Assembly: GCA_003104975.1 (NCBI GenBank)
Contig: PQAM01000008.1
Coordinates: forward strand, 434,001 to 498,000
DNA from: Candidatus Methylomirabilota bacterium
GTDB taxonomy: Bacteria; Methylomirabilota; Methylomirabilia; Methylomirabilales; Methylomirabilaceae
Direction: 5' to 3'
Length of the DNA: 64,000 bases
In this document: piece by piece, positions 31,968-48,416 of the stretch
How the letters are laid out: each line of letters begins with the position of its first letter
How positions within the stretch are numbered: the stretch's first letter is position 1
Notes under the pieces: generated by a model
Told to the model about the DNA's origin: nothing
What the model saw: the letters and a program-made list of their open reading frames with translations, nothing else
The model's database searches: none
Program-made: the position numbers and the translations under genes

Positions 31968-32080
31968 CAGGGTGTAGGGGGTAGGGTATAGGGTCTGACA
32001 ACAGGGTTCAGGGTATAGGGGTTAGGGTAAAAAAAATTGTTACCAACCCCAAACCCCATACCCCAACCCCCGTACCCTGT
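31968..32080. repeat. Heptamer inverted array H1
   Basis: G-rich arm (about 31968-32028) with units such as TTAGGGT, GTATAGG and GTAGGGG, a short A/T loop, then a C-rich arm (32041-32080) with CCCCAAA and CCCCATA units. Could fold into a long hairpin or G-quadruplex. Lies between the WbaP-like gene and the epimerase. Confidence 0.85.
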
Positions 32081-32097
32081 CTTTAGAGGGAGGTCTC

Positions 32098-33051
32098 ATG
32101 CGTGTACTGGTCACAGGTGGAGCGGGATTCATTGGGTCGCATGTTGTTGATGCGCTGGTGAGGGAAGGGCATGACGTTGCGGTGGTGGACGACCTGTCGA
32201 TGGGCAAACGACAGCAGGTTCATCCGTCGGCGCGCTTTTACCAGGTCGATATCCGTGACCGTCGAGCCCTCGAGGATGTTTTTCGTGTCGAGCGCCCGGA
32301 GATGGTCAACCATCATGCGGCCCAGGCTGACCTGCGCCGGTCAATGATTGAACCGTCGTTCGATGCCTCTGTCAATGTCATCGGCTCGCTCAATCTGATC
32401 GAGCTTTCTCTTGCCTACGAGGTGAGAAGGTTCATCAACATCTCGTCGGGGGGTGCGGTCTACGGCGAACCACAGCACCTGCCGGTCGACGAGCTCCACC
32501 TGATCCGGCCCATGTCTGTGTACGGGGTGAGTAAATATGCTGTGGAGCAGTACCTGCGCCTCTTTGACGAGTCCGGTTTGAACTACGCGATCTTGCGATA
32601 TGCCAACGTGTACGGTCCTCGACAGAATCCTAAGGGAGAGGCCGGTGTTGTGGCGATCTTCAGCCGGCAGATGCTCGCCGGCGAGCGTCCGACGATTTTC
32701 GGTGACGGCACCAAGACAAGGGATTATGTGTACGTTGATGACATTGTGGCGGCGAATCTTTTGGCGATGGCGAACAAGCAGGCCTCAGGCCGAAGCTACA
32801 ATCTCGGCCTGGGGCGCGAGGTGAGCGACCGGCAGATCTTTGAATCGGTTCGACGGGCGGTAGGCGCCACGTTGGAGCCGATTCTCGCCTCCAAACGGCC
32901 CGGCGAGATCGACCGGATCTGTCTGGACGCCTCCTTGGCAAGGGCAGAGTTGCGCTGGGAACCGACCGTTCCTCTTGAGGAGGGTATCGCTCGTACGGTC
33001 GCGTTTTATCGGAGCGATGGGGCGCAGCGTGGGAAGGGAGAAAGTCATTGA
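32098..33051 (+). CDS. NAD-dependent sugar epimerase/dehydratase (GalE-like)
   Basis: 317 residues, extended SDR fold. GGAGFIGS (7-14) binds NAD, and the catalytic pair is Y142/K146 in YGVSK. ILRYANVYGPRQNPKGEAGVV near 175 and DGTKTRDYVYVDDIV are typical of UDP-glucose 4-epimerase-like enzymes. Which sugar nucleotide it acts on is not clear. AGAGGGAGG precedes the ATG. It sits between heptamer array H1 and the heptose kinase gene. Confidence 0.88.
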   Translation: MRVLVTGGAGFIGSHVVDALVREGHDVAVVDDLSMGKRQQVHPSARFYQVDIRDRRALEDVFRVERPEMVNHHAAQADLRRSMIEPSFDASVNVIGSLNLIELSLAYEVRRFINISSGGAVYGEPQHLPVDELHLIRPMSVYGVSKYAVEQYLRLFDESGLNYAILRYANVYGPRQNPKGEAGVVAIFSRQMLAGERPTIFGDGTKTRDYVYVDDIVAANLLAMANKQASGRSYNLGLGREVSDRQIFESVRRAVGATLEPILASKRPGEIDRICLDASLARAELRWEPTVPLEEGIARTVAFYRSDGAQRGKGESH

Positions 33052-33100
33052 ATTTCCGCGCGATTTCGACTAATCTGACGCTTGATAGGCATGCTCAGAA

Positions 33101-33134
33101 AGTCCCCCCCACCCGTCCCCTCCCCCTCCGAGGG
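33101..33134. repeat. Fragment of CCCCTCCCCCTCCGAGGG palindrome
   Basis: Shares CCCACCCG followed by CCCCTCCCCCTCCGAGGG with the copy translated inside ispA (61261-61315). Only the left half is present here. It lies just upstream of the heptose kinase gene and could supply a spurious early start. Confidence 0.65.
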
Positions 33135-33163
33135 TGTACAGACCGGAGTCAAGGGTAACAGGG

Positions 33164-46459: not shown

Positions 46460-46473
46460 CAGAAAGGATGCGT

Positions 46474-47070
46474 ATGTCGATTGACCCTCAACTGGAAGCA
46501 AAGGCGAAGGCCATACGTCTGCTGATCATGGACGTAGACGGCGTCCTGACCGATGGCCGGATCTATTACAACGCCGACGGGGTACAGAGTCAGGCCTTCT
46601 TCGTTCGGGACGGCTTCGGGTTTCGCATGGCGCGGGAGGTCGGGTTACTGACGGCGATTCTGACCGGACGGGTGTCCGGGGCGGTGATTCAGCGCGCGCA
46701 GGAGTTGGGGATCACCGAGGTTCACCAGGGGGCCATGAACAAGCTCGATGTGTACGAGACGCTCGTTCAGCGCTACGGTCTGACCGATAACGCGGTGGCC
46801 TATGTCGGTGACGATGTGAACGATCTGCCGGTGCTCGGTCGGGTCGGTCTTTCCGCGGCGCCGGCCGATGCCGACCCGGAGGTCAAAGCGCGGGTCGCGT
46901 ACGTCACCACGCAGGCGGGGGGTCGCGGTGCGGTCCGGGAGGTGATCGATCTGATCCTGAAGGCGCAGGGTCGATGGGAGGAGTTCATTGAAGGGCGGTG
47001 GGCGACGGCCGAGAGGGAGCGGCCGGGCGACGGCTTTTTCTTGACAAGCGACAGGGGTATGTTACAGTGA
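46474..47070 (+). CDS. kdsC: 3-deoxy-D-manno-octulosonate-8-phosphate phosphatase
   Basis: 198 residues from the ATG at 46474, 7-8 bases after AAAGG; an ATG two codons earlier touches that site. HAD type C0 phosphatase: LLIMDVDGVLTDG carries the catalytic Asp pair, and YVGDDVNDLPVLGRVGLSAAPADA the metal site. Releases phosphate from Kdo-8-phosphate. In many genomes lptC-lptA follow; here metK does. Confidence 0.95.
   Translation: MSIDPQLEAKAKAIRLLIMDVDGVLTDGRIYYNADGVQSQAFFVRDGFGFRMAREVGLLTAILTGRVSGAVIQRAQELGITEVHQGAMNKLDVYETLVQRYGLTDNAVAYVGDDVNDLPVLGRVGLSAAPADADPEVKARVAYVTTQAGGRGAVREVIDLILKAQGRWEEFIEGRWATAERERPGDGFFLTSDRGMLQ
47041..47068 (+). promoter_or_regulatory. Promoter for metK
   Basis: TTGACA (47041-47046), 16 bases, TACAGT (47063-47068), with TG at 47060-47061 as an extended -10, inside the end of kdsC. 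Leaves a leader of about 80 bases in which I see no SAM riboswitch. Confidence 0.55.
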
Positions 47071-47152
47071 CGCGTCTAGGGTGGGGTGGTGTGCAGTCGC
47101 CTTGCCGTCGAAGCAATAGAGCAGACGCATTGAAGAGGAGGAGGATCGATTG

Positions 47153-48310
47153 ATGCCCAAGTCGTATCTCTTTACGTCGGAATCGGTGACGGAGGGTCAC
47201 CCCGACAAAATCGCCGACCAGATCTCTGACGCCGTCCTTGACGCCATCTTTGCCCAGGATCCCTACGGCCGCGTTGCGTGCGAAACCCTGGTGACGACCG
47301 GCTTGGCCTTCGTGGCCGGTGAGATCAGCACCAAGTGTTATGTCGATATCCCGAGGGTCGTCCGCGAAACCATCAGGGACGTCGGCTATACGAGGGCCAA
47401 ATACGGCTTTGATTATGAAACCTGCGCCGTGATCACCTCCATTCAGGAGCAGTCGGCCGACATTGCGTTGGGGGTGGATATCCAGGGGGCCGGGGACCAG
47501 GGGCTCATGTTCGGCTACGCCAGCGACGAGACCCCCGAGCTGATGCCGATGCCGATTATGCTGGCCCACAAGTTGGTCCGGCGATTGGCCGAGGTCCGGC
47601 GCACCGAGATCCTGGACTATCTTCGGCCTGACGGCAAATCGCAGGTGACGGTCGAATACCTGAACGGCAGACCGAGTCGAATCGATACGGTGGTGATCTC
47701 CGCTCAGCACAGCCCGGATGTGTCGCTCAAGCAGATCAGGGAAGATATCGTAGAACAGGTGATCCTTCCGGTCCTCCCCACCGACCTGGTCGATCCGGAG
47801 CGGATCCAATACCACATCAATCCGACCGGCCGCTTCGTGACCGGCGGGCCGCACGGCGACACGGGGCTGACCGGCCGGAAACTCATCGCAGATACCTACG
47901 GCGGGGTCGGGAGTCACGGGGGCGGCGCCTTTTCCGGGAAGGATCCGACGAAGGTGGACCGATCCGCATCGTATAACGCCAGGTATATTGCGAAGAACTT
48001 CGTGGCGGCGGGCTTGGCCAGAAAATGCGAGGTCCAACTGGCCTACGCCATCGGTGTCGCCGATCCGGTCTCCGTGCTGGTGGATACGAAGGGGACCGGG
48101 ACCATTCCGGATGAGGAGATGATGAGGATGGTCCGCACCCACTTCGAGCTGACGCCGGCCGGGATGATCAAGGCGCTCGATCTCCGACGCCCGATCTACA
48201 AGCAGACCGCGGTCTATGGTCACTTCGGCCGCACAGAGCCCGAGTTCACCTGGGAACGGACCGACAAGGCCGAGGCGCTCAGACAAGAGGCCGGCCGGTT
48301 AGGGGCATAG
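47153..48310 (+). CDS. metK: S-adenosylmethionine synthetase
   Basis: 385 residues from ATG behind [31 protein letters not shown], the ATP motif [12 protein letters not shown] and the loop [19 protein letters not shown] are diagnostic. Makes SAM from methionine and ATP. It precedes ahcY, so SAM supply and clearing of its by-product are genetically linked; the window also has several SAM-using enzymes, though a functional tie is only suggestive. Confidence 0.98.
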
Positions 48311-48313
48311 TTA

Positions 48314-48416
48314 CTGGGTGCAGGGGGTGGGGGTAGGGTTATAAACAGAGGGTGTAGGGTAGAGGATCCGTGGTTGTGTTCCAAACCCTAGACCCCATAC
48401 CCTAGACCCTGTGCCC
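48314..48416. repeat. Heptamer inverted array H5
   Basis: G-rich arm 48314-48366 (units GTGTAGG, GGTAGGG) and C-rich arm 48380-48416 (CAAACCCTAGACCCCATACC). Lies between metK and ahcY and ends before the GGAGGAGG ribosome site. Confidence 0.85.

Follow-up and report, generated by a model that had tools for sequence, protein, structure and literature searches.

The window analyzed here, a 64,000-nucleotide stretch from a Candidatus Methylomirabilota bacterium (contig PQAM01000008.1, positions 434,001 to 498,000), contains intergenic arrays of telomere-like heptamers, one pair of which encloses a gene of the S23 family, i.e., the family of the 23S rRNA intervening-sequence protein (IVP). Across genomes such genes are flanked by tandem arrays of a short unit, and the unit of an S23 element follows the protein, not the host genome. 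The S23/IVP gene together with its arms is probably a selfish element that settles in the gaps of operons and belongs to the same kind as the 23S rRNA intervening sequences.

In the window, the complete element has an upstream arm rich in G (unit AGGGTNT; 35857..35896, + strand), which overlaps the stop codon of pyrG, whose open reading frame (ORF) ends at 35865, and is followed by the IVP gene (35901..36302, + strand), which starts with GTG, encodes 133 amino acids and is recognized by profile matches. The downstream C-rich arm of CCCCAAA units (36262..36292, + strand) lies a few bases before the start of the kdsA ORF at 36299, and the C-terminus of the IVP is translated across it. With 366 nt between its arms and a gene enclosed, this third array pair of the window (35857-36292) is not a short-loop hairpin; the original prediction, which had drawn attention to the arrays, listed neither the gene at 35901-36302 nor the remaining unit sequences. 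By the curated cut-offs of both profiles the encoded protein is a member of the S23/IVP family, scoring 133.8 bits against PF05635 (cut-off 33.8; domain 35916-36227) and 128.3 bits against TIGR02436 (cut-off 24). It is a four-helix-bundle protein related to XCC0516, the structure of which has been solved (2gsc; E 3.8e-24). The host genome has five IVP genes, each with adjoining tandem arrays of a different unit: AGGGTNT at L001, GGCGTRA at L002, GGAGTRA at L003, an AAGTGTT-like unit at L004, where the two nearest arrays do not form a clean inverted pair, and AAAAGGC at L005. Hence, the telomere-like look is a property of one unit sequence among several.

For comparison across species genomes, the best 80 of 586 IVP relatives were used, so that the locus set leans towards XCC0516-like proteins; these 80 loci span Proteobacteria, Bacteroidota, Chloroflexi, Planctomycetes, Acidobacteria, candidate phyla radiation (CPR) bacteria, Clostridia, two archaeal bins and others. 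Together with the loci of the window genome and of its relatives, and after removal of three of 113 loci without the IVP motif and seven of 110 with short or masked flanks, they provide 103 loci with usable flanks. The inverted match of one flank to the other averages 18.5 within a locus, as opposed to 8.2 between loci (n 2575) and 8.7 at positions 600 nt outward (n 98); it lies above the highest control (18.0) at 40 of the 103 loci and above the 99th percentile of the controls at 74. Further, the mean flank score is 14.7 for period 7 and 12.8 for its multiple, period 14, against 3.9 to 5.7 for the other periods from 3 to 13. Period 7 is the best at 79 loci and period 8 at 15 (94 of 103), the corresponding counts in shifted controls being 17 and 3 (20 of 98). 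In the final set, which includes redundant Xanthomonas loci, 189 of 207 loci have an array of period 7 or 8 that scores 8 or more; among those with room for a control the count is 175 of 193 as against 33 of 193 shifted flanks. The flank controls were taken from the same loci by shifting the position, and some of them run into neighboring arrays. Additionally, 33 plasmid records contain an IVP match, and the 12 chosen for inspection, all cyanobacterial, have arrays in every case (two-sided in 11, one-sided in L395), with period 7 in 11 and period 8 in one; the phage records searched for the IVP gave no match.

Some IVP loci are notable for their number or setting. Across 16 named genomes (L200-L229; G041-G056) the copy number of the IVP ranges from 1 to 11, with 11 in Galbibacter (G048). 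On the plasmids of Pseudanabaena galeata (L389) and Anabaena sp. 90 (L395) IVP genes with differing arrays both lie in a CRISPR-Cas operon, between its cas6 and cas4 genes, and on a Nostoc edaphicum plasmid (L390) an antisense IVP element lies between the two ribonucleotide reductase subunit genes. By eye, a second, truncated IVP frame lies directly 5' of the upstream arm in a Syntrophomonadaceae bin (L067), which hints at tandem copies and their loss.

The relationship of unit to protein was assessed on 124 non-redundant loci, from which proteins of more than 90% identity had been removed, as likewise for the comparison of unit lengths. The share of locus pairs with the same unit is 1.3-2.5% below 50% IVP identity, 3.0% at 50-55% (n 593) and 9.5% at 55-60% (n 84), and it rises to 45% at 60-70% (n 42) and 65.5% at 70-90% (n 29); the Mantel correlation is small (r 0.15), and none of 2000 permutations was as high. 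Unit length follows the protein as well, in that a period-8 locus supplies the nearest protein for 12 of the 23 period-8 loci where 3.6 would be expected (P 0.0006). None of the 14 pairs of IVPs within one genome has a unit in common, which indicates that the unit is not characteristic of the genome. The sharing of units extends to unrelated sites, defined as those where BLASTP at 1e-6 matches none of the reading frames found within ~1.3 kb of the two loci: among pairs of 60-90% identity, 24 of 29 with a homologous neighbor and 14 of 42 without one have a unit in common, against a background of 119 of 6878 below 50% identity. These 14 pairs are not independent, six coming from one clade and three from another, and represent ~7 groups. 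For example, L116 (a record titled Chitinophaga) and L125 (a betaproteobacterial bin) have 68% identical IVPs and the unit AGGATTG in common, with different neighbors. Among the plasmid relatives, the one ranked first for the window IVP comes from Calothrix brevissima, is 49% identical and has AGGGTNT arms as in the window; the IVP of Nostoc edaphicum has GGGAGTA arms. By the unit-protein link and the common units at unrelated sites, gene and arms behave as a single inherited unit, which is found at new sites.

With regard to placement, the arrays had been claimed to be restricted to gaps between co-directional genes, which holds as a tendency but not as a rule: of 82 array sites found automatically in 1.23 Mb of the genome, 61 are co-directional, 7 divergent, 4 convergent and 10 inside called ORFs. 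Among the 72 intergenic array sites 61 are thus co-directional, a higher share than the 319 among 556 gaps with a length of 60 nt or more (P 6e-7). The IVP gene is transcribed the same way as both neighbors at 55 of the 57 loci clearly called on both sides; of the 101 loci in this count 44 were ambiguous on at least one side, and among these five upstream and two downstream genes were called opposite to the IVP. All ORF and strand calls follow longest-ORF rules, except at 12 annotated plasmid loci. Further, for two units out of the three tested, the sites that carry the unit cluster near their IVP gene (P 0.011 and 0.0002), the former value being biased since the window was chosen for those sites.

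Exact period-7 arrays with at least four GGG or CCC number 12 in the 64-kb window, where 100 order-1 Markov sequences contain 0.06 on average. The reported order, a G-rich arm followed by a C-rich one, is present as a period-7 array order at all five sites originally named, with the G arm of the fifth (48316-48416) being irregular and absent from the exact-array set. Apart from the complete element, these sites are gene-less pairs on the + strand: 31970-32027/32047-32077 between a sugar transferase gene and an epimerase gene, 34170-34193/34214-34237 between a PfkB-family kinase gene and pyrG (CTP synthase), 37135-37165/37219-37256 between kdsA (DAHP synthase family) and an ABC transporter (msbA-like) gene, and a weaker pair at 48316-48360/48386-48416 between the S-AdoMet synthetase and AdoHcyase genes. 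The inverted pairing claimed for them is real at the five window sites but is not general among gene-less arrays when these are called automatically: of the 100 arrays of the automatic census (1.23 Mb), only 7 pairs that are inverted and 2 that are direct have both arms above threshold and no more than 200 nt apart, and pairing is therefore clearer in the window than census-wide. A genome-wide count, as had been proposed, gave 158+139 = 297 matches to GGGTNTAGGGTNTAGGG with at most two mismatches, the reversed pattern giving 12+12 = 24. It had also been reasoned that, in spite of the resemblance to telomere repeats, the role must differ; in agreement with this, the window arrays are located at 466-482 kb of a 559-kb contig, in operon gaps, and not at a chromosome end, where telomere repeats belong.

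Corresponding gaps in 13 genomes of the genus, compared by eye, show complete elements, gene-less pairs and remains at the same place. Between pyrG and kdsA two genomes have an IVP with AGGGT arms, eight a gene-less pair (with mixed units in G001), one a 1.5-kb insert, and two, G004 and G005, no array, which indicates that the array is dispensable there. Between kdsA and msbA three have an IVP with GCTGANN arms, five AGGGT pairs, four short GCTGA remains and one a third unit; the GCTGANN remains of G009 and G004 retain the 3' end of the IVP frame, the pattern that would be left by an internal deletion. An IVP match is present in 32 of the 35 Xanthomonas genomes. Of 30 loci from this genus, 26 precede accC and have arms like GGGAATC or GGGATTC, the other four being located between carA and carB, with GGGACC-type arms (the acc and car gene names being taken from sequence, without annotation). 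The three IVP-less genomes have a pair of the second kind, GGGACCC, before accC, beside a leftover GGAATCCC; two of the 16 accB-accC gaps are cut by contig ends. One and the same gap has thus been reused by different units. Additionally, array length differs between two Xanthomonas genomes at five sites, by whole units at four (28/49, 95/109, 54/33 and 106/127 nt) and roughly so at the fifth (44/99 nt).

These features can be accommodated in a selfish element in which the IVP gene is flanked by tandem arrays of one 7-nt (at some loci 8-nt) unit, mostly mutually inverted, and from which the gene-less pairs would descend as internal-deletion derivatives or relics. The IVP, reported to be a pentamer, would recognize these units, most likely as single-stranded RNA or DNA and perhaps with one unit per subunit; what points to such binding is the link between unit and protein. 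A pentameric ring could account for arms of four to five units, and the orientation with the operon would fit either insertion at the RNA level or a need for transcription from the host operon. More tentatively, it is possible that these loci belong to an unrecognized class of minimal mobile elements of bacteria and archaea, comprising a ring-forming protein, no transposase of their own and array ends that are read one unit per subunit, in which unit sequence and length (7 or 8 nt) change with the protein and of which several unexplained bacterial heptamer repeats would be traces.

Several observations weigh against a mobile element whose protein reads its arms. First, no clean gain or loss of an array was seen in 32 comparisons between two Xanthomonas genomes (293 kb blocks, 93.5% mean identity), one of the sites being ambiguous, and movement of the element, if real, is slow or past. 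Second, AGGGTNT matches number 267 in the complete genome G006 and 181 in G014, both IVP-less members of the genus, as compared with 297 in the window genome (G000); arrays are thus roughly as common without the IVP, and its presence in the genome is not required to keep them. Third, at 45-50% IVP identity units seldom agree: the remaining top plasmid relatives of the window IVP (47-48% identity) have other units, and the same-genome pairs that lack a common unit have a mean identity of just 44%. At some IVP loci (e.g., L073 and L112) the arrays are direct instead of inverted, and at the 12 annotated plasmid loci the neighbors both point in the direction of the IVP at nine, both in the opposite direction at two and in mixed directions at one. 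The Pfam search found no catalytic family in the IVP, the net charge of which is near +1 and is positive in 76 of 124; the IVP, being near neutral, is not a strongly basic protein. Finally, about five of the seven positions of a unit are conserved, and the two least conserved ones are not adjacent as a rule; adjacency occurs at the chance rate (0.318 of 68 loci), and an arrangement of five contiguous read bases plus two spacers was rejected.

An unlikely alternative is that IVP and arrays constitute a non-mobile regulatory pair, in which the IVP would be a TRAP-like ring that binds the arrays in its own and scattered transcripts and regulates them. A regulator of this kind would account for unit and unit length following the protein, for the same-unit sites near the IVP gene with two of the three units, and for the frequency of four to five units, the protein being a pentamer according to PMC4990558. 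It is opposed by the persistence of arrays in IVP-less genomes, by the occupation of one gap by different units in different relatives, and by the arms common to unrelated sites.

Somewhat less likely again is the explanation that arose from the original prediction, namely that the arrays form RNA hairpins or quadruplexes in polycistronic mRNA and thereby tune neighboring cistrons. The preference for operon gaps speaks for it, and oligonucleotides of the Xanthomonas and Nostoc repeats form quadruplexes in vitro, as stated in PMC4692102. However, at 81 of the 94 IVP loci with a derivable core (9 of 103 gave none and were left out of this count) no arm has four G3 or C3 tracts. Among 169 arms with fewer than four such tracts, eight have one unit, 35 two, 18 three, 50 four, 33 five, nine six and 16 at least seven; four and five units are likewise the commonest in the 19 quadruplex-capable arms. 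With the modal number the same, quadruplex formation is not what underlies the four to five units, and quadruplexes have to be given up as the general explanation. The hairpins fare better in part: RNA fold z-scores of -2.1 to -2.9 for four window pairs make them possible, but a stem maintained by pairing is not supported, the variable positions of the arms being at most weakly matched. These positions are complementary at 0.608 as compared with 0.578 when shuffled (52 loci; z 1.6), 24 of 500 shuffles were as high, and none of the 52 loci attained P<0.05, which gives no support to a perfect hairpin under selection. Further, hairpins and quadruplexes in themselves do not predict the IVP gene, and two of the 13 genus genomes, G004 and G005, lack the pyrG-kdsA array altogether.

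In RAYT/REPIN systems a gene lies between inverted repeats and gene-less pairs are present elsewhere, an organization that the IVP gene and the dispersed gene-less pairs resemble, and the IVP has weak similarity to Avd of the diversity-generating retroelements. Nevertheless, it is highly improbable that the element is of the REPIN/RAYT or IS200 type, with a Y1 transposase to move it, or a retroelement dependent for its movement on a reverse transcriptase like that of the diversity-generating retroelements. The Y1 transposase (PF01797) has no match in the window genome, G000, as against matches in 5 of 14 control genomes, and the reverse transcriptase profile PF00078 has none in G018 and G022 (9 and 10 IVP matches, respectively; both 93% complete). 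The only reverse transcriptase match of the window genome (C10:540330) has no IVP beside it, the nearest on the contig being ~120 kb away, and the Avd model NF033474 gives 27.8 bits against a cut-off of 80. The PF00078 and PF01797 searches thus do not support the need for either enzyme in the same genome. Least probable of all are ordinary slippage repeats in tolerant gaps with IVP genes as bystanders, which would suit the five length differences between the two Xanthomonas genomes but not the same-unit inverted partner across a gene, the tracking of the protein and not the genome by the unit, or the finding that the best period is 7 or 8 for 94 of 103 IVP loci but for 20 of 98 controls.

The window contains further repeats outside the paired sites. 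Single arrays of other unit families are present at the start of the PMT ORF (GGGTGTT/GGGGGTT; 44813..44843, + strand) and 3' of the AdoHcyase gene (AAGGCGT, then AGTGTTT-like; 49690..49777, i.e., C8:483690-483777, + strand). A (CCCCTCA)n array (30321-30353) lies within a glycosyltransferase ORF (29397-30563), which suggests that some arrays may be translated as protein. A second dispersed family of palindromic, intergenic repeats around TCATTCCCGC...GCGGGAATCC occurs at about 4800-4900, 23180-23300 and 51780-52300, and a 105-bp tandem repeat of 3.7 copies (16721-17106) lies in overlapping ORFs. Other features are a protein with a C-terminal PEP-CTERM motif (50873-51775, + strand) and a PemK/MazF-like toxin gene (58427-58774, - strand; PF02452, 2.4e-31) of a type II toxin-antitoxin pair.

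The S23/IVP family, which has a solved structure and a function described as unknown in PMC4990558, gains a concrete candidate substrate from these observations, and at least one published, unexplained family of bacterial heptamer repeats gains an owner. The unit-protein link amounts to a directly testable recognition code, with more than 100 protein-unit pairs (124 non-redundant loci) in hand. If it is true that the IVP moves its arms, this would be a mobile element without a recognizable enzyme.

The tandem heptanucleotides of Calothrix and its relatives (STRR) are similar by description, being tandem heptamers in cyanobacteria as at the period-7 plasmid IVP loci. Three tandem heptamers are mentioned for Calothrix in PMC4692102. 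The TAACTGA heptamers of Beggiatoaceae, cyanobacteria and Bacteroidetes (MacGregor 2015, PMC4679880) also stand in tandem between genes, close to start codons and with a patchy distribution, and a mobile origin was considered for them. By this description they are like the IVP arms, but almost all of them are direct repeats; the text of that paper does not contain the terms 'S23', 'four helix' or 'intervening'.

The intervening sequence (IVS) in the 23S rRNA of Coxiella burnetii has an S23 ORF in the loop between complementary ends, with two to three tandem heptamers (GACAGAT), variable between strains, 5' of the ORF (PMC4990558). The present elements share with it the S23 ORF between complementary ends, the complementarity here residing in the core of the unit and at most weakly in its variable positions. 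In contrast, the IVS lies in 23S rRNA helices and is excised by RNase III, whereas the window element lies between pyrG and kdsA and its arms are themselves tandem arrays; an Rfam scan of 20 other IVP loci found no family, placing none of them in rRNA. The Coxiella arrangement, with heptamers beside the S23 ORF, suits a common origin with the array elements.

No title or abstract opening covered by the literature search joins S23/IVP genes with intergenic heptamer arrays, a weak negative with subscription journals and preprints outside its scope, and within the literature covered the general link appears to be new. A published counterpart is the GGGAATC / GGGGA(C/T)T repeat found in Xanthomonas and Nostoc by Rehm et al. 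(2015, PMC4692102) and described as having period 7, a preference for four units, a location between aligned ORFs, and 70 and 75 convergent pairs, with the role left open. That paper names no gene element, and the terms 'intervening' and 'four helix' are absent from its text. The window arrays agree with these quadruplex repeats in being G-rich, of period 7 and about four units, and in forming convergent pairs between aligned ORFs, but differ in their unit (AGGGTNT instead of GGGNATC); GGGAATC itself is found at the Xanthomonas IVP loci. In Xanthomonas vasicola, GGGAATC arrays flank an IVP gene between accB and accC (gene names again from sequence). The GGGAATC repeat that was published from Xanthomonas without an explanation is an arm of such an element.

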